This document shows positions 9,141-59,240 of a stretch of DNA of 64,000 nt, one piece after another. The position numbers were made by a program, and so were the translations under genes. The notes beneath the pieces are model-generated. The model was not told the DNA's origin. It saw only the letters and a list, made by a program, of their open reading frames with translations, and did not search any database. This stretch comes from Dysidea avara (lineage: Eukaryota > Porifera > Demospongiae > Dictyoceratida > Dysideidae), in NCBI RefSeq assembly GCF_963678975.1, contig NC_089272.1:62446574-62510573 (forward strand), read 5' to 3'. How positions within the stretch are numbered: the first letter of the stretch is position 1; the number at the start of each line of letters is the position of its first letter.

Positions 9141-9400
9141 GTCATTCACCAATTCCACCCAACATTAAGAATATTACAGAACTGGTGATTCCAAACATGG
9201 CCCCTAAATGGTTTGAAATGGGTCTCCAATTTGGCATTGATGAAAATGAACTGGAAACAATAAAGCATGATAATAGTGACAGTAAGACAGCTGCTAGGAT
9301 AATGCTTACAGAATGGCTAATGAACACTCAGAAAGTGAAGTCTTGGGACTCACTTTTGAGCTTTACAAAGTCAGTCTGTGGGTTAGAGCTGTTTAGCTAG
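9141..9400 (+). pseudogene. Locus A: orphan Death-domain terminal exon, frameshifted at its end
   Basis: After an acceptor ending TTATAG the exon enters with the same phase as the last exons of genes B and E. It encodes NITELVIPNMAPKWFEMG, LQFGIDENELETIKHD and WDSLLSF, a clear Death domain closely related to the other copies. Compared with gene B, two nucleotides are missing in the TTGAGCTTTACA stretch, so the last residues (KSVCGLELFS) leave the family frame and end early. The ancestral frame also holds a stop soon after. No PH, PTB or CARD exon was found upstream on this strand, where the sequence is repeats. It is most likely a duplicated fragment. It could still be the last exon of a gene whose other exons I cannot see. 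Confidence 0.7.
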
Positions 9401-9905
9401 CACTTTGATCAAAAAACTAAGGTAGCTTTAGAATACATGAACACAAAATGTACGAACAGTATTTTAATACAGTACAGTTGATCATATTGATTGCACATAT
9501 TCTGTGAATAACTACATATGTATATTTATATAATATCCTTTATTCCATATACTGTACTTATATTTACAGTATTTTTGTACACATGTTTGTTTGCAGTATG
9601 TAATGTGGGGTTATTTTAATATATTATATAATCAATAAGCAGATGCCTCATGGTATAGAGTAACTGAGGAATTCCCTTTATAGTTCATGAACTTTGCTAT
9701 TATGTCACCACTGGATTAATTTACTTGGCATTATGTAACTACAAAGTACAGTCATTAAAAGACCCAAGATATTGAATTGTAAATCCTTCGTACAAAAAGT
9801 TATCCTAAGGTTTCACCTGTAAATAGTTACCTTATTTGGAAGGTTTTGTGAACCCTTTGGTCATTGTACTAGTTGATCACATGAGAATGATATCATTAAT
9901 TATAA
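9401..9905. other. No gene seen
   Basis: AT-rich sequence downstream of the orphan Death exon. No further exon of that family was found. Confidence 0.4.
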
Positions 9906-10744: not shown

Positions 10745-10768
10745 TTGTTAACTTTTTTTGTAAATAAT

Positions 10769-13119: not shown

Positions 13120-13149
13120 ACCAGTCATAATAATTATTTGCAGAAAAAA

Positions 13150-13480
13150 AGTTTACAGACAAGTACACAGAAAAATTTAGAATTTTCAACTAGAGTAGGG
13201 ACCATAGCACATCGATAAAAAGTACTGAAACAAGCTGGAGTTGTGCACGATACTAAATCACATTAAAACAATAAAAAGTGTTATATCCCTAATGTGCATA
13301 TCCCTACTGTGTATTTCCATTATGGTATCTTGAGCACATTAGGGATATAACACTTCTTATTGTTTTACTGTGATTTAATATCATGAACTACTCCAGCTTG
13401 TTTCAGTACTTTTTATCGATGTGCTATGGTCCCTACTTTAGTTGAAAATTCCAAATGTTTCTGTGTACTTGCGACTATAT
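13150..13480. mobile_element. Compact palindromic MITE, same family as 9.9-10.7 kb
   Basis: The arms ACCATAGCACATCGATAAAA and its complement, with inner AGTGTTATATCCCTAATGTG and complement, fold to a near-continuous hairpin of about 310 bp. Confidence 0.78.

Positions 13481-14605: not shown

Positions 14606-14609
<4 letters not shown>

Positions 14610-14689
<80 letters not shown>
14610..14689. repeat. GT dinucleotide microsatellite
   Basis: About 40 uninterrupted GT units. ORFs reading Cys-Val or His-Thr repeats are artefacts of this tract. Confidence 0.97.
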
Positions 14690-14690
<1 letters not shown>

Positions 14691-14922
14691 ATGCCAACTG
14701 TCCATGTCTCACATAATGGGTGAAGGTCTAGGTGGGATTCAGGTGCGCACACCTACACCTGTTAGATATATGGTAGAACCTCCTGTGGGCTTCTACTCCT
14801 GCCCCAGCAGCAAGAGGATTTGCCTGCGCTGAATCTTAGTACTGGAGTAGCATGTCCGAGTACTGGTTCACAGGGTAGGTATGGCTGTTTAGCATGGTAG
14901 CCACAGGCTTGCTTTTGTGTGT

Positions 14923-15054
<132 letters not shown>

Positions 15055-15454: not shown

Positions 15455-15690
15455 TTGTAACCGGATTTGTGTCCATACACATCCAATTTACCAACTTTGA
15501 CAATTCATAATTTGAGATTGGAAAGAGGTATTGACATGACATTTGGTTAGTAGTGACTACCAATATAGCTGCACAAACATAGAAAATTTCAGGTTTGTAT
15601 GTTTCTTGGACATTACGTTATGGCCTAGCTTCCAAGTTCATAGAATTGGATGTGTGTGGAAGACCCCTATTCGCAAATCCAGTCACATTT
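15455..15690. mobile_element. MITE family 1 copy
   Basis: Ends AACCGGATTTGTG and TCGCAAATCCAGTCAC are inverted, with inner ACACATCCAATTT and AATTGGATGTGTGTGG. Sister copies lie at 17.73, 21.66, 23.03, 23.50 and, diverged, 39.76 kb. Confidence 0.7.
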
Positions 15691-17278: not shown

Positions 17279-20200
17279 TCAAGCTACTTCAATTCTTTTG
17301 ATCAAATTATTGGCTAAACAGCTCTCACCCACAAACTGGCTTTGTAAAGCTTCTAAAAGTGTATTCCAAGATTTCTCTGTCTCAGTGTTATTAAACCATT
17401 CTGTAAACATCATCAAACAAGCTGTTTTGCTGTCATGATTGTCGTGTTTTATGTTGTTCAATTCGTTCTGGTCAACACCAAGTTGTACACCCATCAAATA
17501 CCACTTAGCAGCCATATTAGTGATCACCATTTCTGCAATGTTTTTAATGTCCAGTGGAATTGAAGAATGTCCTGCATGGTGATATATGTAGAGTGACGTA
17601 CATACATGCGTAGTATTGCGTACCAGCTGACAGTTAAAATTGAATTGTGTTGCTATTGTGTTGCTTGATATTTACCATTCATGTCCTGGATAATGGCACT
17701 CTTCCATTTTAAAATCTACCATAATTGTGACCTGATTTGCAAAAAGGGTCTTCCACACACATCCAATTCTATGAATTTCGAAGACCATAACTTAGTGTTC
17801 AAGTGCTAGATAAGTCTGAAAACTTCTCCATCTATTAAGCTATGTTGGTACTCACGGCTGATCAAATTTCAAGCCATTAGCTATTTCCAATCTGAAGTTA
17901 TGGATTGTCAAAGTTGGAAAATTGGATGTGTGTGGAAGACCCCTTTTCACAAATCCGGTCACAATTATACATTATAGGATCTGTACAATTAGATAATAGT
18001 ACATAATCCAGGCAGTTAGGTAAGGTATTGGAAGTATCACTTATTTTACATACATCATGCTAGCATACAAGTCTCAACACCTGTATACCTAAGAAACTAT
18101 ACATTACACACTGTGTCACATTTATTGCACATTCACCTACCAATTGAAAGCTGATGTGCTATTGTACTGGTGCTGGCTGTATCTGAGAATAGCTGACTGT
18201 CATGAGAGTGCTATATGTGCCATGTAGAAAAAAACAGTTAATTTTGACCATACATATATGCCATGAAATAACTATGACTTTATCATGAAGAGTTAATTTG
18301 TCCCCATGGAATGTACCATGTAAGTCATTTCATGGTATACCATGGATTGTTTCATAGGCCATGAAATGCTTATGCACATCAGAATTCATGACATTAATTT
18401 CATTGCAATGTAGAGATTTCATGGGTGTAGTAAACATGAAAAGTTAAAATTCATGGGAAAAACCAAGGGAATTTTCATAAGTATTCCAATGTTCACGGCA
18501 ATTTCATATTTTTGTATCTGGTAGTGAATTTTGCTGATCAGCAAATGTAACATTATTTTTCTATTTTCTGACAGAATAGGCATCACTAAAGATGTCACCA
18601 AATTTTGGAAAATCAGTCCTTGATGTCAAGTGTGAAATATAATTAGAACTTTACAAATCATTGTGTTACTAATTAAGACACTTAATGCATTTGTTGGATC
18701 ATTTCACAGATTCTTTTTGTAATTCAACATATGAATTAATGTTTTTAATCACTGACTGTAACACAAACCGATAGCATAAAGTACCATAATTGTTTAAGTT
18801 GACATTAATTAAGACTGATTGTCAAGTTGCATATTTGTAACCATGCATGCTTACACTGTATCCAGTAATTCAGTACACTTATTATGCCACTATATGCAAT
18901 ATAGGTAGCTAATAGATAGACTGACAGACACACAGACTGACAGATAGATAGATATGTATACAGTACATGCCATAGGACGTGGATTATAAAGGTTTCCACT
19001 TTCTCACTCAGGTAGTCTATAAATCAAACCACACTTTAAATTTCAAAAATATACACTTTAAAGCTATACCTGCGGGGGGTATTTTTTAATGTCTATCCTT
19101 AATTTGTCGAGTGTCACACTGCACTACATAGCTGCAACCAGGAGTGAATATTCACTCTTGCTGCAACTGATATGATAAAATATTATTACGTATTCATGTT
19201 ATAATTTGTCATAGATCTACATAGCTAGTTACCTCTTGAAATTCATTTTGTGCACTGGCCAACTTTTTATATGTGGAAATCAGTTCTGTGTAGATCACAT
19301 CATGTCCAGTGCCAAGGGTGGATTGTTGCAAGCAGGATAAGAAGGACTGGAACCATTGTTTATGTTTTCTAGGTAAAGTGTGCACCAAATAAACTGCTTT
19401 TTCATAATGTGTCTTGCTTTTATCAAGTAAAACCTGGCTATCAGCATTATTAAGTAGCTTTTCAGAGCACAATAGTGGGTGAAGAGCATAAGCATCCAGC
19501 TTTGCAATTATGATTGCACGGTTTTTTCTCAATGCCTTTTTCTTTATCTGTTCACCACCAGTAGTATCAGTCCTATAACATGTAATAGAGTTAATGATGT
19601 AATGTCATGATGTAATATGATGTAATTTATGCATACCTGTAATATAAATACTGCGTACTGTATAGTTTTAAGAGTTAGGTACTTTCAGTTATTAATTAAT
19701 GCAGTAGTCTGTGTGCTGCCTTTACTCGTGTTGCCCAATAGCCTATGCTTCTCTTAGATTATAGAACACTGGGAAATGAGGATGGGACATAATTCATACC
19801 AAATTTTGTTGTTTTACAATGCAATAATATGATTACTGTACATGTATACACATCTAATGATTCATTTTGCAAAATACAACATACGTACATTATTTTATTC
19901 TGTGAAATACGACATGTGTGCATACCCATTTTTATGTGATGCAGCTTGAATACTGGTGATTGAGCAGCTGTCTTGCGACTCTGCAGTAGATAGGTGGAGT
20001 GTGAAACTGTAACTTCCTGTAGTATTATTTAATGATGCTGAGATGGTTTCATGATCTTGTATGGTATTTGCGTCTCTACTAGATGACAAAATGTTATTGT
20101 GAGGTTCTCTTTCTGATGGCTGAGAAGTAGATTTGAGATACGTGATTTCTTCATTGCTGGTGTCATTTGTTTTTGGTATGTTTTCCTTTGAATGGAGAAG

Positions 20201-23200
20201 TTGTGTTGATGTATTTGATAGGGCAACTATATATTCTGTGCCTGCCTCAGGGGTTTGCATTGTTGATTGACATGTTAAAGGATTTTCATCAATGTCAGTG
20301 TTATTTGACCGGGAAACATGTACATGCAGTGCAGATTCAAGTCTGCTAACATTTGAAAATGTATTATTGGAGTGTGTCATACCAATACTGTGGTTGCATT
20401 GGGCTGGAAAAGAAGAGCTACTAAAGTTGTTGGTCATTGGTTTTGAGGTTGGAGAATAGACTTCATCACATGATCGATCGTCACCATCCAACTCATCTTC
20501 ACTGTCTATAGAGTCTGAAAGGATACCAGAATCACTGAAGCCACGGCTGCGATATTGAGAGTGATCAGTAACTTCAACTTTTTGTGGGATACAAGTTAAT
20601 CTGATCAAAAAATAAAACAGTATAAGTTCACTAATAAAATGCATGGATAATGTGATGTGTAATTGCATATAATTTCTGATTGAATGGTAGTCAAGTTTTA
20701 ATGAAACCAGCAAATAGATTGTTTATTGTGTGTGGCTTATCATGTTTACAAGTTAGACACTCCTACAAGAGCATAATGCATTAATTTAGGTACTATTTCC
20801 AAGACTGTTTGAATACCCGTGCTAACAATAGTAGCTATCATTATATCAAAGTTTGTGACATCATTTAACTAACTTGCCAAGACTTTCAAGACAGTCACAC
20901 ATCTTTGAAGATTCCTTACAGTTCATCCACAACAAGCTTAATCCTTCAGCACTCTCTCCTCTAACTGCTATGAAAACAAGAGACTCGGTATAACCAAACC
21001 ATTTAAGCATGTTTGAATTCCAGATGTGAACAAGTGTATTTTGATTTGAGCAATCATATAGGTTGAAAGTCGAGCCACAGTCAGCTGCAATGTATAAGCC
21101 TTCAGTAATGTTGAGCCCTGCACTTTTATGAGTGATATTGACAACCCATGAATAATCTAAAGTAGTCAAATGACACAATGAATATTTATTCATGTAACTA
21201 GCTAGAAACGTACCAGGATCAAACTCCGATGAATCATCATGTCTAGCTATGAAGTTCTGTGGAACAAGGCTATAGTTGGGTTGCTCAGGGATAAAAAAGT
21301 ATGGGAGATCACAAAACAGTGTGCAAAATTTAATCCATTCCTTTTCTTCAACATCTGATGTGGCACAAAATGAGAACAGTTCACTACCATCAAATGATCT
21401 CAAGATAACTTTTCTGTCTTCTTCTTCTTTACATACATGGCCAACATTAATGAACAGAATTTCTTGTGTCCATGACTTTCCTCTGGCTGCAGATTTAACA
21501 TCCTTGAATAGCTTTAGTGCAGCTGGTTGGTCTACTCCACATGTGGCCTTTAAGTATTTTACCTTGTTAGTCTGTAAAATATACATACATATTCAATCCC
21601 ACAGACTTTCATGACTTACAACTTCTTACACCATATATTGTACTATAATTTGCAGCCTATATTTTGACCAGATTTGCAAAAAGGCATCTTCCACACACAT
21701 CCAATTCTATAAACGTGGGAGACCATAACTCAGTGTTCAGTTAACATATATACCTGACCTTTTCTCCATCTGTCAAGCTATGTTGGTACTCACTACTGAT
21801 CAAATTTCAAGTCAATAGCTTTTTCCAGTCTTACGTTTTTAGTCGTCCAATTTGGTAAATTTAATGTGTGTGTGTGGAAGACCCCTTTCCGCAAATCCGG
21901 TCACATTTACAGAAAGCAAGTATTTCATTAAAGTAACTATATACTTTCAGCAAGTCTTTCCAAAACTTATGATTACTGACAGAAAATAATGGAGCACATG
22001 ACCACTAGCCCAGAGCACCCATGCTATTATAATATTGATTACAACAATTATTCTGTATATACCTGTGTGGAACACTGTAGAGTCATAATGGAATCAAACC
22101 ATTATAATTTAGTTACAAACTTCTGTTTAGTAGCAGAATAAACTAATTTCCTACATGCTTGATTTTTCATGCATAATGATGGTCTAAGGTTGTACTGTAC
22201 TATATTTACAACAGCACAATTTATACCTTAATTTGCTGTTAGATTTTGCCTGAATAGGAATCAATTAAATGCTCCCAATAATCAGCTTTCATTATTGATT
22301 CACAGTATCTACATGTATGACGTTTTAAAGGCCTCCAACAGCTATACAAGATTTCATTACATAATATGGGACTTATATGCAGCAACTATAGCAATTTATT
22401 TGTTTGCAGCCTTGCAAAATATGATATCTTCAGTGACATGAGGGGAAGTAATCACTAAAGTGGGACTGGCTTTACATTGTCTTTGACTTTGGTACTGTAT
22501 TACATGAGTGGGTTTGAAGCTGAGACAAGTATCCTTTAAAGATGAACCATTTTTGACACTATTATGTACGAGTATTGTTGGGCTAATGCAGGTTTGATAC
22601 ACTGAACGTAGAGTTAATGTTTTAGCAGATTGAGAATACACAAAAATACAGTATTCCCAACTGATAGCTAGCTACAATACAATGTTAATAATACTGTAAT
22701 TATAGCAGCATAATACCCATGAATTTTATTATTTGTATACCATATATAGGCAACCAACAATAGCCTGGAATTGTCAGTAACTTTGTATGAAAGCCACTTT
22801 AGTTGGGCTGTACATTCCACCTAACGCTACTATATATTAGATACACTGTAGATTGCGGTCACTGTTTTTAATTCACAAGTTAGTATCATATCCAGGGCTG
22901 CCAGAAGGCCCATTGTACCCACTGCAATTCAAGAACTGATTTGAAAGGTGGCTCAAGATTAAGGAGTATATAATCATCTCCTACTTGGTGGTATCAAATA
23001 CACAACTACGTGTATGGTTAGACAATAAAATGTGACCAGATTTGCGAAAAGGGGTCTTCCATACACATCCAACCTATGAACTTGGAAGACCATAACAGTG
23101 TTCAGGAAAGATACAAACCTGAATTTTTCTCCATCCATTACCCTATGTTGGTGCTCCCTTCCAAGTCAATAACTTTTTCCAATTTCAAGTTATGAATTGT

Positions 23201-24734: not shown

Positions 24735-27700
24735 ATGTCTACACGTAGCCTACCATATTTCAAGAGCAATTTACTAGACTACTGCGAAACGGTTCGCCAT
24801 CACGGTGATTCGCTACCAGCGCAAAGAAGAGACCGCGGGAGAGAGATCATCTCGTCACAATCGAAGTTCACCAATAACTGTGAATCCAGTCGAGCAATTT
24901 TTGCTGGTCAAGTGCAGATCATTTGTAGTCAAAATGTAAGTAGCTACGTAGTCAGCTAACTATTAAATCCACACAATTAACTCATCACAAAATTTTGATA
25001 GCTAGCTATAGACATTACAGTGCTAGCTAATACATAAACAGTAGTACAGACTTAGCTGTAGCGAATTGTGCAGTTCAAAATAATTTTAAGCATGTAGCTA
25101 TATAATATATATACATAATGGAATTATCAATAAAGAGTTCCCCGGGGCATTGACTTTCAAACTTGTATTTAATTCAAACGTTTTTGCAAGCTGACATGTA
25201 TATTATGAATATTTTGTAGTACTAACAGATTGGGAACGTACACGTGTTTAATGATGGGGTTATTCACACTTTCATACTACCATTCGGTACACATAGCTAC
25301 AGCAGGAATTTTTTCTTTCAAGCCGGCTAACTCTTAAGATTTCCCTTTATTCAGTTTGTGCTTTTTAGATGATCCAGGGTCATGTGTTGCACCATTTATT
25401 ATATGCATGGTCCTCAGATGTCCAAAAGCAAATGACATGAGGAATCTACTACACCTTGTGCTTGTTTAGGATTTTATGCATCAAAAGTTCTGTGATTTGG
25501 ATGTCACTGTGTTTCACTGCTTACAATAGGAAATATTGCAGCATAGCTGGTAATGGTTAGCTATAAATATTAGAAAATATGGCACCATGATATATTTGTT
25601 CTATAGCCAATATCATTTTATAGTAACTGTACACGAGCTTCTGCAAATGAACACAATGATATTTTGTAGTAATTGTGTGTATAGAGTTAAGTCAATTTTC
25701 AAGCTACCAGCTGCAGTGTTGTACCCTCTGCATTGTACGGGTGTCAACTAACATTTGGCACTTTACCATGTTCATTGTGTTGGTGAGATGTGTAAACATA
25801 GTTCTTATGTTGCTTCATGGGAAATGACGTTAACAACAATAGGTCTGTAATTTTACTATATCACAATATCCTGAATTAACTCTTTCCGGTAGATATCCTC
25901 CAGATGGTGACATCATCAATTACACTATAAAATTTGTCATGAATGTACTTATTCTACTGACTCACAATTTAAATCATAACATGTTGATTAGGTTTATAGC
26001 AATGATTAGTGGGGAAGTTTTGTATAAGAATTGCTTTAAATTGATGTCCTGAATTACTATCTGCATGCCCAGATATCCAAATAATACAGAATGTCTGTTT
26101 CAGCTCTGTTAAACTAAACTGTTGCTTTATTTGCTTTGGTGGTCAATTTATAATCACAACAAATTGGAGTTTGCAGGTTGCACAATAAGATCTTAAGAAC
26201 TTGTGGATGACAAAATGTGCTTTGCTATTGATTATAATTTTACAGATACATGCATTATTATAGCTACATAGCCACCCTACAAATTTTTTCTGTATGTTCT
26301 CAGGATCACAAGAGCAAGTACTTGGAGGCTTTCTGTGGTGACAGTGAAGATGGACCGGCAAGATTAATAATTTCTGAGGTCACTACAAGCAATGACAAGG
26401 TTGTGATGCAGGATATTCTGTTTACAGATGTTAAGCACGTTAACTGTACTGATGACCGAATTAGAAAAATTGTTGAATTACAAACGCTTGAGGATGGTAA
26501 TTACTTCAAATTTTATGATGACTCCGAAACAGACACAATGAAATGGTTCAGATATTGTGGACTGCTCTCTGCAATTCCATTTTGTACCATCCCAAAAGTT
26601 CCGAAGGAGAATTTTGTCTTGCAAAGTTCCATTGATAAGTATACCAACCCAGAAAGATTTAATGCAAGTATGTGTATTGCTGTGTAATATTGTTCAGCAG
26701 TTGTGTAATGGCATTAATGCATTACGGATCTTAAACTTCACATAAATATAAACTTGCATGCTTCAATTATGGCAGTGTGGGAGAACACTGCCACTAAGTG
26801 ATGATTTAAACCCATTTCCTTTAATACCTTATGCAAGTTATATTCACAGTAGTACTATACCATGTGTAGTAAATGTGCACTAAAGTAAACAAACAGTCAT
26901 TATTGGCATAAACAGGTTTAATGAATGTGTGGTCAGTTACTATATGTGCTGATTAAATGCTATGTATTGTGTAGCTTGCATATGGGTGGTCCACATACTC
27001 CATGAAGGAATTGTTAAAGATGACACCAGCTTGACTGGACTCTGTGTTATCACCATTCGCAACAGTGACTCCACATTTAACATATATGACTATCATAATA
27101 GGAGGCAGTTGATTTCTTGGGATCGAGGGGAAATAATCCAATGTGGTGGGGTTGAGTCACTTGTATTCTTAGAAGTAGGAAGGCAGTGTAGTGGTGGTTC
27201 AGGATTATTATGGATGCAACATCCAATCCCACAGGCTATGACACTACGACAATGCCTTCAGAAGTAAGTCACGTGAAATCATCATCCTAACATGTTTTCA
27301 TATTGTGCACACATTGCAGGTTTATTTATTTTGGTCCTGAAAGTGTCAGTCAACCAAAGCCACCTGTATATTCTTTACCATTCCATAATGTGGAATCTGA
27401 GTCAGCAACAAGCAGGGTTCTTCTTACAAGCAGTAGTAGCTGTGAATCATTTCACTTAAATGAATATGTTAACCAACATAGACACCTCCCAACATCATAT
27501 TCCACAACTGTGCATCCATGCAATTTTGCCACATCCAAACACCAGCATGCAGTGAAAAGGTACACACCTGTGTTACTGCAAAACTCAATAAACTCACTCT
27601 GTTCAAGTGGGTATGTATCAGATGCCAATAGTTTATGTGATACGCTCAGTAACGATTTTCATACAAGCATTACTAGTACTCTAACATCTAATCCACGTGT

Positions 27701-35935: not shown

Positions 35936-36079
35936 ACCACCATGGACAGTTCTGTAATAAATATATGTATTATATATATAATTTGTACATTTACTGATAA
36001 AATCAGAAATATTGAAAGTACATCTGCTTCATCTTTTCTTCTTCCTGTTGAAAAGAAAAAAAGACAGGTTAAAAAAGTC

Positions 36080-36117: not shown

Positions 36118-36142
36118 TATACAAATACAAAAAGAAGTGAAA

Positions 36143-38329: not shown

Positions 38330-39503
38330 ATGTATATATCTACTTTTCAAGTTTTTCGACTAGAGTACTAGCTAGAGAACTCTGCTCTACAGACTTACTT
38401 CACAAAGCTTCCAAAATTTTCTTCCAGTGTTTCTCTCTATCTGTCTGTTTTCCAACCATTCCTCAAACATTGTGCTGCAGGCATTCTTGCTGTCATGATG
38501 GTTGTGTCTTATGGTGACCAGCTCTTTGTGGTCTATGCCAAGTTGTACCCATCTCACACCATCTGGTTGCCATACGTATGTGGCATGAGCAGCTCTGAAA
38601 TGTTCTTCATGTCAAGTGGCAATTGGTAATCTTCTGCATGTAAGTAATGTAAGAGATGATTATGGCATACTTAAATTATTATGCTAAACATAACGATTCA
38701 TATATAATCATGCATGAAACAGAAGTTCCATTTATATAGTTATATATTACCATATTTCAGCAAGTCTACACTTTGCAGTTCTAGCTATACCACTCTCATA
38801 ATTACTTTGCTATGATAATGATCATAGTTATAAACTATATATGGTGGACATTTATATGAACATTTGCATATAACTGGGGGACAGTGGAGGTTGTAATTTT
38901 CTGCTAGCTAACATCACTGGCTGATTATATAGTGACACTCACTGGAACTTTGCCACAAAAAAAGTAGCTATTGACTACATTAGCAGAAATGTATGATATT
39001 ACTTACTTATCTCAGTGCTGCTTAGATGCAGCTTCATTTGAGAGTGACTGGTAACTATCATTGCTGCTCTACAGTGCACATAATTATATGATTACAGACA
39101 CGTAATAATTAATTACCGCTTTTACAGATATATTTTGTCTGTTGGGACCACTCGATCTCTTGCGCTCAGTTTCAAGCGCTTTTAAATTGAGTCATTCCCA
39201 GTTCCAGATCTGGACTGTTCTAAACATAGTTGTAAAATTGAAAACCATCCTATTCTCTTTCTGGACAAGTTAGTCACCAAATATTCTCATGTGACCTGCT
39301 TTCATGTAACAAATAGCAGCTGTCTTCTGCAGTTAACAGGTCTTGATCATGTCAAAAGACCGAATGCGTAATTTCTTAATTATCACATCATGACACTGCT
39401 TCAAAGCTATTGTGTGTATGTCATCAATGGTCATGTCATCATAAATATCATCAGATTAGCTAAAATTGTAGATTGAATTATGCATATTACAAAAATTAAT
39501 AAC

Positions 39504-39948: not shown

Positions 39949-39999
39949 TACCAGATGCTGTGTTTATTATACTGTGATATGTACAACAAAACATATAGG

Positions 40000-43970: not shown

Positions 43971-45425
43971 CTACTAGAGGTCTGCAACATACCTCCCTGT
44001 TACTAGGGTGTGTGTTCTATCAGGGGGTTTCCAGCCTGCAGGACTGTTAAAGTAGTTTTCACCTGTGTTATATGTCTGTGCTTCTGTTTCATTTTCTTTA
44101 ACACTAAGACACTTGTAGGACTCTTGTGAGTGTAATGCCATCATTTCACATAGTGTACTGTCACTGCAGGGACCAAACAGCGTACTTATGTCAGAAAAAT
44201 TCACCTGTCTGTACATGAGACTTGCATGCATTGAGAGGTTGCATCCAAACTGCTATTATCAATGAATGTTGGTGTTGTTATATTAGTACATGACTCATCC
44301 TCATATTAGTCTTCATCAGATGCTGAAAATGATTTATGACTGCCATCACTTTCAGTAGAAAAGTTTCTGGATCTTCTTGCTGAAACATGGACAGAGACTT
44401 GCTGCTGATCAGTGGTTTTAGGAATTAAAAAAACTAGAAAATGTAACCATTAATTTGTTTCATTACAACTGTGCCTAACATTTAGAGGTATTGTCCTAGT
44501 GATATTGGACTGTAGGTTGCATCCACAATAATCCAATTCCCTCATTACATGACTTGTCTTTAAAAAAACAGAGATTCAACACAGCCAGATCATCTGATGG
44601 CTCCTTGACGCCAAAAAAGCAACTTCTAACCACTATCAAAATTGTGAATATTAAAGGTGGAGTCACTATTGCAAATAATGATAGCACGGAGCCCAGTAAA
44701 AATTGTGTTGTTCTTAGTAATCCCTTCCTGGAGCACATTCACTACCCATATGCAACTGACTACAATAACAAAAAATTTAACAAGGACAGCATACTACATG
44801 CACTGTACTATGTACAGTAGGTTGTATGCTGATATTTAAAGTTGCATAACTTTATTATTTAACACTATTTAATTTTCTAGTAATAACAAAATCTCCCACT
44901 AATTGCCTAGTACTACTCCCTTGACCACCGCAGTGTTTAGATGGAAACATTGCATGTAATCATGCACATGCTTAATCCCAAACATTTAACACACTTAGTA
45001 CAATTGAAATTTTTTGCAAGGGAAGGTTACCAGTGTAATATGTGTTAAAAGGTATTTCAAATGCTATTGTATTTCTTTATTCAAGTGGTACATTATATTT
45101 ATATAATTCATTGCTTGTTTGTTTATTTTTTTGTTGTTGTTTTTTCATTCATTGCTCTAAGTTTTGTTCACCCAATAGCTATGTACATACTTGTATTAAA
45201 TTGAAGATCACCATTGTATTGATCAATGAGTTGTTGAGGAGCGGCTGCTGAACTCTCTGTTGGTCCCAAATATATTTTTGGTATTTTTGGAATGCTATAA
45301 CGTGGTATAGTCAATAGTATTGCACAATGCTTGTCGTGTTGTGGACAGTTTGGGTGACACTGCATAAAATGAAAATAAATATTGATCTCCATCCTTTCTT
45401 TCTATAGTATCGATTCTTCTGCCTT

Positions 45426-45480
45426 GATTCTTATTTATTTATTACTGTGTAGGACTCCATCAAGGAGTATAACACACAGA
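45426..45480. repeat. Tail-repeat insertion that breaks the PH exon of locus D
   Basis: TTATTTATTTATTACTGTGTAGGACTCC resembles the TTTATTAAGATTTTACAGTAC...CTGTAGGAC repeat seen at 10.0, 10.45, 42.0 and 57.15 kb. It sits between the two halves of the PH coding sequence. Confidence 0.55.
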
Positions 45481-46385
45481 TACAAAAACAAAATCAAAGT
45501 AAATTAAGATTCTTAGTATGAATGTGCCTTATATTAGTGAACCAAATTTCCTGTATTGCTACTTTTCTATCATTTACCAATGCCAAATCCTTGTAAATTA
45601 TCAGCCTTGCTGGTTCATCCTCACTAGCACCACAGATAGCCAGCATATACCGTTTCCTGTGGTCCTGTAACATAAAGAACACTATACAAATACTAAGGCT
45701 ACCACTGAAGTTAAGATGAACACAATTTTAATATGATGCATGAATGCAAATTACTATATACTGTATGTGAAGCATTGTGAACTAGCTTGTCCACACTTAC
45801 TGTATTTCATAACTACTATAGCTATCATGGAACACTTCTAAAATGTTGCTGATTGACAGTAAATGGTCAAGTTCATGTTTTTCCTTGATTACATCTGTTG
45901 TACTGACCACCTTCCCAACATTTGTCTATATCAAATGTCAGAATTGTAATGGTTTATTTGCATGTCAGTACATTGTCAACTGGGATATAACCACCATCAA
46001 GAGTTCATAATAATATAAATGAATGGAGCTCTTGCCACTATATACAGTCTGTGTGTGTATGTGTGTGTGCAGTGTGTGCACATGTGCATACGTCTGTGCA
46101 TGTGAGTGTGTATGTGTGCGTGCGTGTGTATGTGTGTGCTGAACTGGTTTCGTACTAAGAAGCTCATGAATGCATGCAGTAGTAAATACATGGACATGCA
46201 GTAGTGAAATACAGTACTAAAAATATGATTGCTTGCTTACATTTTCACTATGTATCAGATTCACATTCATTGGACCTTTAAATATTATCCAAATAAGCCC
46301 ACCACTAGCAGAGCACTTGGACATGATTTTACAATATCAAGTGCAGCATAGCCCAACAAAGAAGACACTAGAATAAAAGCACAAA

Positions 46386-46988: not shown

Positions 46989-46990
<2 letters not shown>

Positions 46991-47019
<29 letters not shown>

Positions 47020-47214
47020 TGTATGTATGTATGTATGTATGTATGTATGTATGTATGTATGTATGTATGTATGTATGTATGTATGTATGTATGTATGTAT
47101 GTATGTATGTATGTATGTATGTATGTATGTATGTATGTATGTATGTATGTATGTATGTATGTATGTATGTATGTATGTATGTATGTATGTATGTATGTAT
47201 GTATGTATGTATGT
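46991..47214. repeat. GTAT tetranucleotide microsatellite
   Basis: About 56 perfect copies. The long Tyr-Val-Cys-Met and His-Thr-Tyr-Ile ORFs across it are artefacts. Confidence 0.97.
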
Positions 47215-49442: not shown

Positions 49443-52377
49443 CTACTGAGAGTCATTTGATAATTTTTTGATAAGATTATTAGCTACGGAACTTTGTCCC
49501 ACAGAGTGACTGTGTAATGATTTCAGAAGTGTATCCCAAGACTTCTCTGCCTGTGTGTCGTTTAACCACTCTGTAAACATCTTCAAACAAGCTTTTTTGC
49601 TATCTTGATAATCATGCTTTATGATATCCAGCTCATTCTGGTTGACACCAAGTTGGATACCCATTTCATACCAAGTAAAGGCCATATTGGGTATCACCAG
49701 TTCTGCAATGTTCTTAATGTCAAGTGGTTGAGAAGTATCTGTAATGATGCATATAAGGGTCATAATGAGATGCATCATACATGGAACATAGGCTCTTAGA
49801 TTATGTGTTATAAATTTAGTGGTGTACCGATTCCCATTTTTTAGGCAAAACCAATACCTGATATCTTTTATCGATACCTGATTGTAGGCCTCTACAAGTC
49901 ATACTTGTGCATACTCCACTAAAAGTACAGTAAAGCCAATGCTGTGAGGTTGTACACTTACGTACCTCAACTCAAGTTGCTAGTCAGACAAGTGGGGTAG
50001 GGTTCCAACCATCACTGTTTATTATTATGGTTACCACAATTAATAATTATACATGAACAAATTACCTATAAGTAAGTACATGCCAGAGCCTTTGACACCA
50101 GCCCTCCAGTTGTACTGCAGCTGCTGGACTTAATAGACTAATAATTTGTTGACCACAGTCCATTACAACCAATTTCCAACTATGGTAAAATTAGCTAATA
50201 TTATTATTGGCTTCTACTGATTACCGATTACCAATCCAATTATCAATACAACTCTATAATAAATTTACGATGTACACCTCAAATTCTCAATCATGATACA
50301 AATATGTAAGAAATAAAGCAAGTGCTATACATCAATAGCACGTAAAAGAGTACGTAAGAGACAAATTTAGCATGAGGTGAAGCCGAGTGCTATAATTTGT
50401 AGAGGTGTACCGATATGGGTTTTTGGCATGTACCAACATCCGATATTGATGTAACCAAAAGAAGCCGATAACTGATAATCGATCCGATATTTGCATTAAT
50501 ATTTTAAGCAAACAAAAGTGTACATTTACCTACCCTACAGCAACATGTGCATGTATTCTTTGCTATACTCTTCCTGTGGAGGTGTACAGCTTGGGTTTTT
50601 ATTGTGCAATCCAGACAATTAGGCACCCACAAACATTTTATGTAGATATACTCCCATGAAGCCTTAAACGGATATTTCTGCATTATTCCGCATTCTAATG
50701 ACTTGTGAGAAAGCTGGTAGCTACAGCAAGTTTCCGTTATCCTGTGATTCTTCTTTTATTACAAAGGTACTCTATAATTGCTTCATTTGTAAAGACTGTG
50801 ATAAGCTTTCCAGCAACAAACACTAGAATTGCGTGTATTTATATGGCTTCTCGTAGCGTAGCACTTGTTGCAGAGTAAACAATAAGCCAGAGCATACAGA
50901 ATCTATGGCCAGAGCCACATGGATAACGTAGAAAACCAATGCATAATCCGTTTATGTACAAACTATTGCTACTGTATAAATATCGGTAGCGATATCGGTC
51001 CTCCTGCTGTTCTGTACCGGTACCGATATTGGTAAAAAATGCCATATCGGTGGCCGATATTGTAGCCGATCCGATTATCGGTACACCTCTAATAATTTGT
51101 CCCAAGACCATTCTTTGAGTGTTATATTATAGCACAAGCCTAGGCAGTGCTTTAATTGTAATAGAGAACTGTCAACTTGAGATACACACAAGGCATACAA
51201 AATAATTAGAAACTTACAGAGTAGTCGTATTACACCTGTGCTGTGCCTGTATTAATGATTTTGTGGACCTGGATCATCTTCTTAATGACTAAACGTTTTC
51301 AACTATGGTACGCAATATTTTCGCTATAGGACTCATCCATTTAAGTGAACAAAATGTAGTGAGAATGTTCACTGCTGCTGACCACAAGCAACCATCATTA
51401 AAATCTTCAAGTATGGCTATAAATTAAATCCAGTAGTTCTCCTCTTACTGGTTGGGTTGACACGTCAGCCAGTGCGCACGGGTTATTAACCTAAGCTGGT
51501 TTGGTTGATTTACTGGTCAGAATGGGTGATTAATCACTCAAAGCATGTTATTAGCCTGCAAATAGACCCGGCAGTTCTATAACTACTTGATATATAACTG
51601 TGGGTCTATCAAAGTGTTCTATAACTAGACATTTACATTCTGCCTAGCTTTATTGTTTTTTGCTTTGATCCTCCCACACAAGTTTCTTTACCACTGCTAC
51701 TATACTTGCTTATACATGCATAGGCGTAGCAACCCGGGGGGTGGGGCAAGGGAGGCTGGAGCCCCCCTTGTGATTTTCTGATTATAGATTCAAAAAGATC
51801 GAGATACTCTAATAGAGCAGTCAGTTACTCTAATAAAACAGTCACAGTATTCAGAGAAGCAGTGTAGCAAACTATGAAGTTGTGAATAAAGATTTTTATG
51901 TGCTTTATCAGTGATACAATATTATTTAGTGGAGGGCAGCTATTCTTAGCAGATGTTTCCCTTTTTTTTTAACTCTTCAACACCAAACTAGCTAGAGTCC
52001 CCCTATCTAAAAATATCTTGCTACACCTATGTACATGGTCATGGCTAAAGAGACTATCACAGTATGCATCAAATTGTAGAAATGACCTGAACAGTAATAA
52101 AAGTCACCATTTTTCATGCCTGCAAATTTTAGTCAACATCATAGTATTACTATTGTTTAAAATATATATTACCTGCAAAACTTTGCCCATAAAATGTAGT
52201 TATATACATAGAAAATTGTGCAATAAATAAAATCACTTACACATCATAGTAGCAGATGAAGCTTCATCTGAGAGCACCTTACTGCTGCTCTACAGTGCAT
52301 AAGAAAATTCATTTAGATGATCACATGATTGTATAGTTTTCAGTGGATTCATGCACTCAAGTACATGCATTATACAT

Positions 52378-52465
<88 letters not shown>

Positions 52466-55400
52466 TATATATATATATATATATATACACATTACCAGTG
52501 TTGGGAGTAATGCGTTACTTATGTAACGCATTATATTACTTAGGTAACGGGTTACATTTGTATAAGTAACGCATTACGTAATATTATTACTTTTGTGGTA
52601 ATATAATGAAATATGCTATAAAAATATAACTCAAATTATTTTACTTACAAGTGTAACCCGTTACCTAAGTAATATAGTTACTGTAACAAATCTAATATTA
52701 CATAATATTATTACTATAAGTAACAAAGTTACTAATCTCATTCGTAATCTACTGAGTAACGCCTAGCCACAACGAAGTAATGAAGCCTACTGAATGAAGC
52801 TTATTCACCAGCTTCTTACTTATAACCAAGATTTGCACATTGTCCAACAACGCAATCATGTCACGTGATAAGATGGTAGTTTCACACGTGACAGCTTAAT
52901 GCTGTGGACACAAAGTAATATAATATGTAATATTATTATAGTTACTTTATTTTATGGGTAATATGTAACTGTAACTAAATAGTTCAGTTGCAAGTAATAT
53001 GTACTATGTAACTAGTTACCTTTAAAAGTAACTTGCCCAGCACTGCACATTACAGACACACACACACATTACACACACACATTACACACACACACGCACA
53101 CACACACACACACATACACACACACACGCACGCACGCACGCACGCACACACGCATGCACACATTACACATCACACACAGTGATCAAATACCTCTTCTAAC
53201 TCTGAAGTGTTCCTAGTATTTTTAGACGCATTTTGTCTGTTAGAATACTTTTGCAAACTCTTATACTCAGTCTTGAGTGTTCTAAAAATTAAATCGTGCC
53301 CAGTTCCACTAGTTGATTGCTCTAAAGATTTTATAAATAGCCCAAACCACCCCTCTTGCTTTCTTGGTAAGTTAGTCACTAAATAATCTGCTATTTCCTT
53401 GTGTGACCTGCTTTCATGTAACAAGTACAAAATATCTGCTGTAGTTAACAGGTTATGTTGATGGAGAAAAGGTTTTATTACTCCAATATCCAGTTTCTTA
53501 GATATGACACTGTGGCATTTCTTCAATGCCTCTATCTGTACTGCCTCAACAGCATCAATAGCATCAAAGTCTATATCATCACATAATTTGTCAGGTTGAA
53601 GGGATTTCCTAACAGAAATATACACATGGATCATTCAAAACATATGATAACCAGATGTTGTAAAGCATGACTATCATGAATGGTAGGATGATGTGTCAGG
53701 AATGTAATAATATTACAGTTATTCAGTTCTTATAACATTTATGCTACAGTGGTGATTAGTGTTCTGCTGACATTTAGATAGGGTGATGGAATAAAAACAC
53801 TATCTGCCATATTTTTGTGTGTTGGCCAAGCTTCTTTTCTATATTGTAGTGACAACATTGTCAGAAGCATACATGCTTGTCTTTCTACTTGAGTTTGTAC
53901 TGATCCAGTAATAAAGTTTGGGAAATATGCATGTTACTAGAATGATCTGTTGCTTACTAGAAAGCAGGCGCTGTTGTTATTTAAAACAGTAAACCATTGA
54001 CTGGGCCTGCAAAAGCTACAGTATACACTATCGTATCACAGGTAACATTTCCATACATAGAAATTAACACCGATGACATTCTCTTCCCCAGACCACCTAT
54101 TCATAACACAAGAGGGTACCATCTGAGATATTTACCACCTCCCACCAGAATCAACTCCTATCACTATACTCCTTATTCCCTTCAGCAATTCAGCAATGGA
54201 ACAATCTTCCAGGATCCTTAATTAATGCATCAAGTGTAGAACAAACTATTATAATATTGTGCTCTTTACACTCAATTTGAGGTCTTGCACAGTAAAAAAA
54301 TACAAAATATAGAATTAATCCTGTGACTTGTATAGTTTATATTTGTACAATGACAATTAAAAGTTTGACTATATAGCCGAACATTGCAGAAACACAGCAT
54401 TGTGGAGAACCATGAAAGCTTCAAAACTTTGGTAAGTTTGTATCCCAGTTTTTGTATGTCTGGTACATCAATAACTTATTGTAATACACACTAACAAGTT
54501 ACTCTCATTACAAAAACTTACTTTATGCTTGCTTTTTCTGAATTAACTCTAAATCTGCTGCAATCTGATGATTGCTGTGATCCAGCATCATGTGATGATG
54601 GAATCTTTGAATCAGATGAAGAGTGTTTGATGTGTACATCTTTAGGCCTTACAATAGATGAAATATTTATGCACTGTAAAAATAAGTATACTTAGTACCT
54701 AGATGTTGGGTGCTGACTTGGAGATGATGCTTTTCTACTCTTGTTGAAGAAAGGATTAACACTGGCATGATCCTGAGAGCAACTATCTATTGTTGAGGCT
54801 GTTTGAGTGACAAAACTAAACAAAATAGAAACAGATATTAATTTTTTTATTACGTATATACATGGAAAGTAAATATCAAGACTCCCTAACAGAGCAGTCA
54901 ATGTATAAGAAAATGCTCTATTTGAACTAACAGGATAACCATACCATATATGTAAGACTATAAATATTGTAACAAAGTAATTATGGATGACTCAATCAAA
55001 GTTTTGGGATTTAAATTTGATTATTTACTTACCACTAATATCTGATATACTGGGCCATGCTAAACAAAGGGCAGGCCATCTTTACTGCTGCCGTTTTCTA
55101 TTGACAAAGCAAGTTATGTACAAATGTATCCATGATCATCCAATATTATTTAGAGTATGGCAATGTTCTCTATATCAGTTGGGAGCTGTTAATTCTCATT
55201 TATGTCAACTAAATGATTTGCAGTCCTGCATCGAACGGACATGCTCATTTGTTTTTCAACCACTAGCTCTTTCAATATCGAAATTCCACCATTACAGGAT
55301 AAGCTTGCCATTTATTAGCTGGAGAAGGACATGGGAACTTACAAACTTACTACCTACAGTTGTGTGATAATCCAACTTGTCACAGATCTCATCGTCTTCA

Positions 55401-58400
55401 CTCCTGGGACCCAGCTGAACAATTAACCCTAGGGCATTGAATAGATTCAAGTGCAGTTAGCTGGCTACAGCTGTCAGCTATTGATATTTGGAATGGACTT
55501 CCAGCTGACATGCTTTTACAAGGAGAAGTTTCAGGCTGGCGCACTGTTTTAAAAGACGTATAGCATTTTATATGTACAGTACTTGACATTCTTTGTATGT
55601 ATATAAATGTTGTTTTTGAGATAATTAAAAAAATGAATTTAATTTAAAAATGTGGGTGTGTTTTTGGATGTAGGCAGCCACACATCTCTCATGAACACCT
55701 ACACTATACAAGCCATCAGCACCTGCAATCACCACCTGGGGCTGCACCTTAAACCCCCAGATTGTGACTCATTTAAACTCCCACATTGTGACTCATTGAT
55801 AAAACATTCCGACTACATATACGTCCCTGCTAGTGTATTAATTTACACTGCCTACATACCTCTCCAGTTTGTTGGAAGGTTCCACGGTAGCAGTATAGCT
55901 GTTGCTTTCTCCGCTACTGTGCTGCCTCAGTTTATTTTCATCATATAAGAAATGCTTGCAGTACCCTTGAGAGCATACCACTTCACACAGAGTGCTGTTG
56001 CTACACTGATCAACCAATGTGCTACTACCCGAAAAATACTCACTTGAAGTAAACGAATTTGAGACTTGTGATGATGGCATACATTGTGAGTTTAAATCAC
56101 TAGAGTTCTCTGTATCAACAAATGGTTGTGTACTTATATTTGAAACTGACAGTGTCTCAATGTCCACACGTTGGTCTAGATCTAGTGGTGAGAGTGAATC
56201 ATAACTGCTGTCACTTTCAGTTTCATTTGACCAAGTGCTCAGTGCTGCATCACATGAATTGTGAGTGAGTGGTTGCAATTGATTGATACTTTTAGATCCA
56301 AGTAAACTGTGATAAAATGCAATTGTCATCCATATTATACTTTCAACATGACTTACTGTTGAAGGCATTGTCGCAGTGCTGCAGCTTGTGAACTTTTAGG
56401 CTTCATCCACAGTAGCCCTGTACCCTCAATACATCCTTTATGTGTCTCTAAAAATACCATCGATCTAATACAGCCAGACTGTTTTATCTTCTCTGAATCC
56501 CAAGATAGCAGCAATTTCCCAGTAGGGCCATGCACAGTGAACATAGAATCTCTACTGCAAATGATGATAGTATAAACCCCAGAAGAGATGTTATTGATCT
56601 TGGCAATTCCTTCATGTGGTATATAGACACTCCACATGCAAGCTACACAAAAATAATACAAATTAGTATATAACACAAGGCAGGTACAGTAGGTAGAACC
56701 TATATATAGTGCAGTTATTGCTAAGGCATATTTTATTGTATGCTATTTGACACTTCTGAATCATCATTTGTAGTGATGTGGGATGACAATACTCCCTCAA
56801 GGCCATAACAACAGTAATAATTCCCTGCTACATGGTACTTTAACAACTGTTACATCATGTACATGTATATGATACATACTAAACATGAAAAAATTGAATG
56901 GGAGGACTGCTAGTGTCAAATTTTATTACAAAATCTCTAAAATACAGCACACTGCAAAAATCTAACAAGTACAGTAGGATTTGCCACAAATAGCCACAAT
57001 AAAAAGCATAATAACTATAGCTATATATGCTGTATTCAAAATGTCTGCAATAATATACAGAGCGTAATAACACACACTATATAAATTATGATCCAATATA
57101 TGGATGTATTGGAACTATTTTCAGCATGCATACATTTAGGTATTTTTATTTATTTATTTATTAAGATTTTACAGTACAAGTGCTGAAGGTCTGTAGGACA
57201 TCTGGTCCTACAGGTATGAAGTTAACGGTGATGGTTAGACATACTGTAAGGATATTTAAACGCATTATACATACTTGCATTAAATCTTTGAAGATCATTG
57301 GTATACTGACTGAAGATATGTTGAGAGATTGTGTTCTCTTTTGGTCCTAATTTTTCATTTGCTAATTTTGGAATGAAATAGCATGGTATTTTCAGTAGTA
57401 ATGCACAATACTTAAACCATCTTGTAGAATTTCCAACTGAATTTGCATAAAACAATAGTTGGTCTGCATCATTAAACATTTCTATAGCAATAACTCTTCT
57501 ATCGTGATCTTTAGGGCAATAAGCACGCTTGATATTTGTGAACAGAATCTCTTTTACCACAGTTTTGCCTTCAACTGTGGATGCAAATTCTGTGTAAATC
57601 TTTAGCTTTGCTGGTTCACCTTTACTGCTACCACACCAAGCTTCCATGTACATGTCCTTATGGCCCTGCAACATATACAGATAACCAATACTATTATGTA
57701 CACATATTGATTTTAACACTGTATATGTACTCAAGGTTGCATGGATTGTATTACTGTATATCAGTGTGGTATACACATGATGTTCGCATGAATGACATTA
57801 CTTGCTGAAATACCTGTTAATAACTTGTGTGACTATAAACATGAATTTAATATTGTAATATTCATCACAACCACAAATAACAGCTTATTTAATGTAGTCA
57901 TGTAGACCTTAGCAGCTTTGTGCTTGCAGTATGTAGTTCTAACGGAAATGAACTTTAAATACATGTATATAGTATATCCCTTTAGGCATACAAATGTACT
58001 TGTATTTATAGATGATTTTGCCTAATGGTTAAAATACAATCATTGATCTCAGATAAGCTATTCATTTCAAGTCTAAAAGAGTTAGACATAATAATTACAT
58101 TGATGTACCATATTTAATATGTGACTGAGCCTGCGAAAATAGGGCATGTGGGCACATGATTTTTACCTACTTTTTCAATTTTGCATCGCTCGTAACGTTT
58201 TGTACTATCAAGCTATGGCAATGCAATTTTCAGCTCTTAGTAAACATTTAATTGGCTTTATGGTGCAAGTTACAGAATGCAACTATTCTGTTCCAGTACT
58301 GAGATATGACCTCTGGAATGATGGGATGTAGTTTGTGCCCACATGCCCTGTTTTCGCAGGCCCGGTCACATATTTTAATTAGGACTGTGAGACTCTATGT

Positions 58401-59240
58401 GACCTGGTCTGTGAAAAGGGGTCTTATAGCCTTTTCGATTGCACGTACTTGGCAACCTGTAACTTGACCTGTGAATGTGGTATCACCCTGAACGTTTGTC
58501 CCCGTATACCCTTAACATAGCACTATGGCTTGGTGTAATATGAAGGTGATAGGTTGAAAACATGAGGAGTTATGATTACACAAACGTGACAATTTGGAAA
58601 GGCTATAAGACCCCTTTTCACAGACTGGGTCACCTATAACGTTTTAGTTACGTATATATCTATTATATTTTAGGAATTGTTGTTGGAGTATTACCATGCA
58701 CTCTTGTCACATTATAATTGCAATAATTATGTCCATTATCAAATTGTTAAGCAGGCAATTAAAAAATTGTTTTGTCCCATGAGCCTTACCCATGCACCTA
58801 TTACCTCTGCAGACAAACTACAATAACTGCAATATATAGCTAAACAAGGATAACGAATTATAGGGCTAGACATCCAGTTTGGTTCCATGCATGGCCACTG
58901 TGGAGCAATATAGCATACTGTGTAGTAAAGGTTGAAATAACCTGTTGTGGCTTTTTATCGTGCATGAACTATCCATGATAGCATCTTTCTGTTGTATAAT
59001 TATGGTGATTCATCATGACTACTTGGTATACAGCAATAAAAGTACATAAATTGTACACACCTTATCATGGTCATACAATCAAGTACAAGAAAAATCAATG
59101 TTATGCTATAAGCCAACCACAGACATGTGTATTAACACCATGCATGCATGTACACCTCCAAATACACTTACATTTTCACTTTGCACCAAATGTACAGGAC
59201 CTTTAAATACTATCCAACTGCTAGCAGAGCACCCAGACAT
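49443..59240 (-). CDS. Gene E: PH-PTB-linker-CARD-Death adaptor, complete
   Basis: Hand-assembled as eight exons: 59240-59172, 57665-57275, 56642-56357, 56306-55860, 54815-54699, 53608-53191, 52289-52241 and 49738-49443 (2073 nt, 690 aa; phases 0,1,2,2,2,0,1). The PH domain starts in exon 1 (WIVFKGPVHLVQSEN) and ends with NSTRWFKYCALL. The PTB is at residues 154-249 (IRSMVFLETHKGCIEGTGLLW). The linker, residues 249-437, is Ser-rich with SSYDSLSPLD and SSEYFSG and is split by an extra intron relative to gene B. CARD-like domain: residues about 453-545 (ALKKCHSVISKKLD, NLPRKQEGWFGLF, STSGTGHD). A 49-nt exon joins to the Death domain at about 596-675 (FTWYEMGIQLGVNQNELD, SWDTLLKSLHS). Introns 6 and 7 hold at least four TIR elements. 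Function as a signalling adaptor is inferred from the domains. The linker exon structure is the least certain part. Confidence 0.82.
49818..50258. mobile_element. MITE with ACCGAT-rich ends, 8-bp duplication, gene E intron 7
   Basis: It starts AGTGGTGTACCGATTCCC and ends with ATTACCGATTACCAATCC and ACTCTATA. ATAAATTT lies at 49810-49817 and 50259-50266. It looks like an older relative of the element at 50400. Confidence 0.6.
50400..51091. mobile_element. hAT-like MITE, 8-bp duplication ATAATTTG, gene E intron 7
   Basis: Ends TAGAGGTGTACCGATAT and ATCGGTACACCTCTA are inverted. ATAATTTG flanks both ends (50392-50399, 51092-51099). CGATAT-type words cluster near both ends. No transposase. Confidence 0.85.
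51719..52031. mobile_element. Small TIR element, 6-bp duplication TACATG, gene E intron 7
   Basis: CATAGGCGTAGCAA and TTGCTACACCTATG are inverted ends. TACATG is repeated at 51713-51718 and 52032-52037. It carries GATCGAGATACTCTAATAGA near 51797. Confidence 0.78.
52380..52487. repeat. CA then TA microsatellite
   Basis: About 42 CA units followed by about 12 TA units, directly beside the hAT-like MITE in gene E intron 6. Overlapping ORFs are artefacts. Confidence 0.96.
52496..53045. mobile_element. hAT-like MITE, 8-bp duplication CACATTAC, gene E intron 6
   Basis: Ends CAGTGTTGGGAGTAA and TTGCCCAGCACTG are imperfect inverted copies. CACATTAC is repeated exactly at 52488-52495 and 53046-53053. 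The interior is rich in GTTAC and GTAAC words in both orientations. Confidence 0.88.
53054..53180. repeat. CA/CG-rich microsatellite
   Basis: Impure CACA and GCAC repeats immediately 3' of the CARD exon of gene E. Confidence 0.9.
54075..54240 (+). mobile_element. Non-LTR retrotransposon tail remnant in gene E intron 5
   Basis: IHNTRGYHLRYLPPPTRIN, then in a shifted frame AIQQWNNLPGSLINASSVEQ, matches the C-terminal pattern of many LINE proteins (basic stretch, then WN-LP). It is a short dead copy. Confidence 0.6.
54522..54673 (-). other. Possible alternative or relic linker exon of gene E
   Basis: This block is open for 50 codons (CINISSIVRPKDVHIKHS...), sits between a strong acceptor (TTATTTTTACAG) and a strong donor (AAGTAAGT), and is Ser-rich like the other linkers. 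Its exit phase (2) fits the CARD exon at 53608, but its entry phase (0) does not fit the upstream exons. Only 25 nt separate it from the exon ending at 54699, too short for an intron. It may be a mutually exclusive exon or a relic. Confidence 0.35.
54987..55560 (+). mobile_element. Possible degenerate retroelement coding remnant in gene E intron 4
   Basis: An ORF of 126 aa reaches 55367. Beyond it, in another frame, SAIDIWNGLPADML resembles the WN-LP tail of LINE proteins. The N-terminal part (RAGHLYCCRFLLTKQVMYKC) is not recognised. Opposite strand to the host gene. Confidence 0.3.
57148..57216. repeat. CTGTAGGAC tail repeat in gene E intron 2
   Basis: TTTATTTATTTATTAAGATT followed by ACAGTACAAGTGCTGAAGG and CTGTAGGACATCTGG. 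The same module occurs near 10003, 10436, 41990 and, diverged, 36860 and 45426, and probably belongs to a LINE or SINE 3' end. Confidence 0.6.
58116..58373. mobile_element. MITE family 3 copy in gene E intron 1
   Basis: TGTGACTGAGCCTGCGAAAA and TTTTCGCAGGCCCGGTCACA are inverted ends, with GGGCATGTGGGCACA and TGTGCCCACATGCCC shoulders. Confidence 0.82.
58399..58633. mobile_element. MITE family 2 copy in gene E intron 1
   Basis: TGTGACCTGGTCTGTGAAAA and TTTTCACAGACTGGGTCACC are inverted ends, with GGCTATAAGACC shoulders. Confidence 0.82.

Follow-up and report, generated by a model that had tools for sequence, protein, structure and literature searches.

Clustered genes of the sponge Dysidea avara that appear to join an IRS-like PH-PTB head to CARD or CARD-Death tails

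Gene anatomy of the cluster

The window analysed here is a stretch of 64,000 nucleotides from the sponge Dysidea avara, at positions 62446574-62510573 of contig NC_089272.1 (hereafter C1; 65,135,833 bases of a 550.8-Mb genome). It carries five homologous gene copies, A to E, built from parts of a common architecture in which a PH-PTB head of the IRS/DOK type precedes a CARD and a Death domain. The copies were located by comparing the window with itself in translated exon searches, at the place given by a preliminary description of this DNA, and extend from 9141, directly after the acceptor of the Death exon of A, to 59240, the start codon of E. Cross-matches between the Death exons of B and E (5e-39), the CARDs of B and E (8e-23) and the PH exons of C and E (8e-28) are far beyond chance. 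When Pfam was run on single exons, the Death domain was identified by sequence above the cut-off in A, B and E, and the CARD above it in B and C and below it in E (18.6 versus 23.9 bits); the IRS-type PTB domain was matched in C alone, below the cut-off (20.6 versus 22 bits). Each shared part named in the preliminary description is thus supported by genomic evidence. Its view of B, C and E as near-intact genes with all four domains holds for B and E but not for C, and three intact four-domain genes are ruled out, as C ends after the CARD. Scans of the window for tRNA genes and Rfam families found nothing.

Gene E (minus strand, 59240-49443) has nine exons that encode 732 amino acids from ATG to stop, in frame and with matching splice phases. 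Exon 1 (59172-59240), an ATG open frame with a GTAAGT donor in phase 0, supplies the start codon and the first PH strand and is the counterpart of the start (MSGCSW...QN) of P0001, a database protein named 'uncharacterized protein [Dysidea avara]'. The remaining PH domain in exon 2 (57275-57665) and the IRS-type PTB domain in exon 3 (56357-56642) were placed by self-search and splice frame. Linker exon 4 (55860-56306) runs from phase 2 to phase 2 between consensus splice sites, and linker exons 5 (54699-54815) and 6 (54522-54647) are predicted from splice sites and frame only. The CARD in exon 7 (53191-53608) groups with the Death-linked CARDs. It is followed by a bridge of 49 bases in exon 8 (SSSKVLSDEASSATMM; 52241-52289; phase 0 to 1) and by the Death domain with the stop codon in exon 9 (49443-49738; 32.2 bits).

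Gene B (minus strand, 21571-17279) is unbroken over the 672 amino acids that run from its second PH exon to its stop codon, with the phases of E. Its PH exon (21214-21571) was placed by self-search and splice frame and its PTB exon (20874-21156) by these and the alignment with IRS-1. A single linker exon (19926-20600), set by the splice frame, leads to the CARD exon (19233-19572; 36.6 bits), a bridge exon of 70 bases (HSHDSQLFSDTASTSTIAHQLSI; 18141-18210; phase 0 to 1) and the Death exon with the stop (17279-17571; 34.9 bits). Copies of a dispersed repeat, each about 150-190 bases long, occur inside B (17741-17934), just upstream of B (21679-21872) and, inverted, nearby (15472-15626).

Evidence that the Death domain is joined to the CARD

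A bridge exon is required between CARD and Death, because the phase at the end of the CARD exon is 0 and that at the start of the Death exon is 1. An exon of the needed 0-to-1 phase with good splice sites is present in E, in B and in a third gene, g62277 (unit u279), which lies about 185 kb from B and whose seven exons are open from ATG to stop over 632 codons. When all open AG-to-GT stretches of the right phase in the CARD-Death gap were taken as candidates and self-matches were excluded, the bridges of B and E were reciprocal best matches with a score of 31 among 30 candidates in the B gap and 117 in the E gap, where the next unrelated candidate scored 20. The decayed copy D carries an E-type bridge between the remains of its CARD and Death domain (score 42, whereas 500 shuffles reached at most 26), and the bridge of another gene, g62288, is near-identical to that of B (score 100). 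The g62277 bridge resembles the others only moderately, with scores of 23 against E and 16 against B.

In seven of the 18 regions examined on C1, the CARD is followed by a Death domain of like orientation, and domain order, strand and splice phases agree among E, B and g62277. Together with the bridge, this bears out the preliminary description in joining PH-PTB, CARD and Death in one gene; genomic evidence supports the prediction that PH-PTB-linker-CARD-bridge-Death is encoded as a single gene in E, B and g62277.

Gene C and the decayed copies

Gene C (plus strand) consists of PH, PTB, linker and CARD exons and a proposed short last exon, and all its modelled exons are open. Exon 1 (24735-24935) has an inferred ATG position, a GTAAGT donor in phase 0 and a match to exon 1 of P0001 (E-value 8e-5). 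The PH exon (26304-26667; self-search and splice frame), the PTB exon (26975-27263), the linker exon (27320-28075; splice frame) and the CARD exon (28934-29297; 31 bits) follow. The proposed terminal exon (30320-30337), which reads VPLNH and a stop, resembles the last exon of P0001 (IPVQVSDI) with the same phase-0 boundary. This type of exon is present in C and P0001 and was not found in the paralogues F and G; the Death-bearing genes were not searched for it. No Death match better than an E-value of 0.65 was found within the 8.7 kb after the CARD of C, and P0001 likewise stops after its CARD. C and P0001 appear, from their sequences, to represent a PH-PTB-CARD form without Death.

The preliminary description also rightly regarded A and D as decayed: both have frame shifts, and D also has stops. 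D (minus strand) is the ruin of a four-domain gene. Its exon 1 is traceable by exon search at 46241-46324, followed by PH remains in two separated pieces (45174-45667), PTB remains with stops and a frame shift (44514-44760), linker remains with a weak match to the E linker (44055-44198; E-value 0.002), CARD remains in three frames (39170-39452), a bridge exon with its acceptor (39024-39078), which is the best match in the window to the E bridge apart from E itself, and Death remains in three frames (38346-38667). A is a lone Death exon (plus strand, 9141-9419; 26.1 bits) whose reading frame is shifted close to the end. It shares 88% identity with its g62277 counterpart, and no PH, PTB, CARD or bridge exon was detected beside it.

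Between C and D lies a minisatellite (34768-35941) of 31/61-base units with 19 copies of the 61-base period. Long microsatellites, including 56 perfect TATG units and TG and AC arrays, occur at 46990-47214, 14606-14689, 14916-15043 and 52380-52463 and give rise to spurious open frames. Three inverted repeats (36142-36468, 2405-2749 and 13160-13471), with arms 93-97% identical and loops of 19 to 121 bases, are like small non-autonomous transposons.

The wider family

With P0001 as the query, 81 exon matches were obtained across the genome. Eighteen regions were examined, with C1:62.295-62.447 Mb, where no P0001 match is listed, and some gaps after the window left out. PH, PTB and CARD occur together in 17 of them, spanning about 415 kb within the stretches examined, and six of these 17 head-bearing units have a Death domain (u235, u265, u279, B, D and E). 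Two CARDs are present in u136 and u162, at loci L025-L026 and L028 (C1:62136579-62140576 and 62162625-62166328), where the aligned parts of the second CARDs are identical, and u201 has several CARD pieces. In the broken gene g62288 (unit u289) a CARD is paired with Death, and the 5 kb examined upstream hold no head. Nearby on C1 are headless CARD matches (for example at 62094399 and 62204536), PTB fragments (62123374 and 62127909) and one more Death match (62108141). The preliminary description spoke of clustering, divergence and gene death; such birth and death is borne out and goes beyond what was claimed, with 17 units and head-tail exchange (see below).

Among the genome matches of P0001, contig C8 holds two further PH-PTB-CARD sets, and C3 and C7 hold PH-PTB matches without a listed CARD. 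The top 18 E-like Death exons, with 150 of 867 candidates scored, are all on C1 at 62.2-63.4 Mb. The order is reversed, Death first, on the minus strand at C1:62595074-62596183, where an E-like Death exon accompanies a CARD. Death matches on C2 (for example 53693762-53693968 and 32865542-32865763) lie within open frames some 2,600 to 5,200 codons long, which are possibly very large intronless genes. At the thresholds used, a search of 5.8 billion proteins named no other species.

The PH-PTB head and its phosphotyrosine pocket

The PH and PTB assignments rest on homology to P0001 and to P0002 ('insulin receptor substrate 1-like') and on matches to IRS-1. The head of P0001 matches the PH-PTB region of IRS-1, in sequence best over the PTB domain and in fold over both domains (242 columns). 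Its CARD matches that of caspase-9, as expected of a CARD fold. In a second structural look (VIA), the listed matches concern the CARD only, and the absence of IRS-1 there is not contrary evidence. The Pfam IRS-PTB model PF02174 has 13 matches elsewhere in the genome and none in the cluster, and therefore routine annotation could miss these heads.

The phosphotyrosine pocket of IRS-1 presumably contains the arginines R212 and R227, a numbering that was not found in print, passages of PMC3938774 included. Both arginines are kept in 8 of the 11 Death-less members (P0001, F, G, H, u136, u162, u214 and u131) and in P0002, and one is kept in C, u158 and u201. By contrast, none of the five readable Death-bearing PTB domains keeps the pair: both arginines are missing from B, E, u235, u265 and u279, and E has lysines at both positions. 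A Fisher test of this split gives p = 0.026, although related genes are not independent. Eight docking motifs were counted in P0002 (six YxN and two YxxM), two YxN in P0001, one each in C and g62277, and none in B and E. The arginine split and the motif counts suggest that phosphotyrosine coupling suits the CARD-only branch and not the CARD-Death branch. Thus, the proposal that the Death-bearing copies couple phosphotyrosine signals to death-fold assembly is not supported for the readable ones, and such coupling fits, by sequence, the CARD-only members.

Probable exchange of heads and tails, and selection

The head tree comprises 16 heads and P0002, with D omitted, and the CARD tree omits pieces with no more than 60 aligned letters (that of D and two of the three of u201). 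Death-bearing heads fall in three places of the head tree: B, u279 and u265 stand together (100/99), u235 stands with u131 (98/95), and E lies within the group of C, F, G, P0001 and u214 (100/99). All six Death-linked CARDs, in contrast, form one branch of the CARD tree (95/99). One CARD clade against three head lineages indicates that heads and tails have recombined. Approximately unbiased (AU) tests, whose p values are post hoc because the groups were picked after an initial FastTree look, spoke against one common origin of the full four-domain gene. They rejected the Death-bearing heads as one clade (p = 5e-48), and the placing of the E head with B, u279 and u265 (p = 0.006), of the E CARD among the C-type CARDs (p = 0.024), and of the u235 CARD with u131 and u158 (p = 6e-4). 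At least two recombinations between the heads and the CARD-Death tail, giving three pairings, would be the simplest account. The route may have been recombination or gene conversion in the linker introns.

The ratio of nonsynonymous to synonymous substitution rates (dN/dS) was below 1 in all 40 computable comparisons out of 43, among which several dS values are saturated and the PH and PH-PTB rows overlap. The family is under purifying selection. The highest ratio, 0.77, involves the broken g62288, and the PTB domains of g62136 and g62162 give 0.06. Between B and g62277 the ratios are 0.40 for PH, 0.26 for PTB, 0.53 for CARD and 0.20 for Death; between B and E, the Death domain is the best conserved domain, with 67% identity and a ratio of 0.14. 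Positive selection was rejected, and with no ratio above 1 the immune-type character of the family is no more than putative.

Proposed explanation and its alternatives

The explanation preferred here, with a probability of about 0.55, is that the cluster is a family of death-fold adaptors that derives from an IRS-like docking protein, has swapped heads and tails, and includes CARD-Death members without phosphotyrosine input. The PH-PTB head would have been retained from the IRS-like ancestor while the phosphotyrosine-rich docking tail was reduced. The tail would now exist in versions with one CARD (C, P0001 and others), two CARDs, or CARD and Death (B, E and D). The head may recruit the protein to a membrane receptor complex, where the tail would nucleate CARD or Death assemblies that engage partners of the caspase or kinase type, with cell death or an immune response as the possible output. 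The CARD-only members, mostly with a phosphotyrosine pocket, would respond to tyrosine-phosphorylated receptors. The CARD-Death members, which lack the canonical pocket, may be recruited in other ways (by lipid, an unphosphorylated peptide or head-head pairing) and would act, like RAIDD, as bivalent CARD-Death bridges. Exchange of heads and tails between copies would yield new pairings. At somewhat under even odds, the genes form an expanded recombining family of interchangeable PH-PTB heads with CARD, CARD-CARD or CARD-Death tails, in which some members read phosphotyrosine and the Death-bearing ones have shed that input.

Several observations weigh against these assignments. Pfam finds no PH domain in any exon of the window, and the PH part alone matches IRS-1 with only 3.6 bits. 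The structure model of P0001 has low confidence in the PH-PTB region (mean predicted local distance difference test score 51.9 overall) and fits IRS-1 badly in overall superposition (root-mean-square deviation 15.7), and the fold model of the E Death exon is poor (52.5) and was not used. Exon 1 of B was searched for and not found. The loss of the arginine pair depends on the alignment in B and u235, where an arginine lies one residue off the second position, and D keeps the first arginine, its second position being unreadable. No bridge above background was found in u235 and u265, two of the seven CARD-Death pairs, and the background there reaches 24, which matches the scores of the g62277 bridge. 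Finally, no transcript of the CARD-Death form was found, nor any such protein among the 5.8 billion, where P0001 and P0002 are the sole relatives matched. The model of C was not found in that database either, so its coverage of D. avara genes may be patchy.

The gaps in u235, u265 and the protein database would also be expected if the Death exons were separate small genes beside PH-PTB-CARD genes, the real product being PH-PTB-CARD only. P0001, and apparently C, end after the CARD, A comprises a single Death exon, and u289 pairs CARD with Death without a nearby head. However, Death exons begin at a phase-1 acceptor and so need an upstream exon, the open frame ahead of the Death domain of B has no start codon, and the bridge not only provides the 0-to-1 phase in B, E and g62277 but persists in the decayed D. 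Separate genes are accordingly rather improbable. Slightly less improbable, though still unlikely, is that the Death-bearing members are dominant-negative proteins or decoys, which would limit the CARD-only members through a phosphotyrosine-blind head and sequestering death folds. The loss of the arginine pair in all five readable Death-bearing PTB domains and the absence of docking motifs from B and E agree with this, but the conservation of the Death domain between B and E fits an active surface equally. Least probable of the three is a cluster made up mostly of duplicates that are decaying or not expressed and now serve no function. Broken copies do occur (A, D and g62288), and only two database proteins were found; E, g62277 and C, however, are open over all modelled exons, and the uniformly low dN/dS ratios, down to 0.06, speak against such decay.

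Comparison with known systems

Growth-type docking proteins and death-fold adaptors normally belong to separate layers of animal signalling. Like the IRS and DOK proteins, the sponge genes place a PH domain before an IRS-type PTB domain, and IRS-1 is the best solved match. Unlike them, they have a reduced or lost tyrosine-motif tail for SH2 docking, a CARD or CARD-Death pair added, and no arginine pair in the readable Death-bearing members. RAIDD/CRADD is a small CARD-Death protein with no PH-PTB head and no long linker. The sponge genes resemble it in encoding CARD and then Death in one protein and differ in carrying the head; the RAIDD CARD is among the weak sequence matches in the PDB (E-value 0.016), with no orthology shown.

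For D. avara, PMC12909245 reports 39 CARD genes and 128 DEATH genes, and also NLRC and NLRD genes. The NLRs are NACHT-LRR receptors, alike to the present family in their expanded CARD or Death domains; the words 'PTB' and 'phosphotyrosine' are absent from the main text of that source. In line with the preliminary description, which knew of no described family that fuses all four domains, neither PH-PTB-CARD nor PH-PTB-CARD-Death was found in the literature searched. As far as that literature goes, the parts are known, and their combination and the exchange of heads and tails are undescribed. The family would add an immune-type candidate missed by the standard Pfam search (PF02174), and, if it arose as proposed, its evolution by head-tail swaps would parallel that of self/non-self and immune families.

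The closest parallel in design is artificial. Engineered chimeras of PTB or SH2 domains with a DED turn tyrosine-kinase signalling towards apoptosis (Howard, Chia, Del Rizzo, Liu, Pawson 2003, via PMC2575513). As described there, a phosphotyrosine-reading domain is likewise fused to a death-fold domain in one protein. Unlike these DED constructs, the sponge form would be natural, CARD-based and equipped with a PH domain, with the phosphotyrosine pocket lost beside Death. On the broader reading given above, of an expanded recombining family, tyrosine-kinase or membrane signals would be wired straight to caspase or inflammasome-like assembly, as seen so far in this sponge alone, and some members would be the natural counterpart of the engineered kinase-to-death adaptors. 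If expressed, the genes would be a natural example, open to experiment, of the rewiring of a receptor-docking module to death-fold assembly that was previously built artificially.
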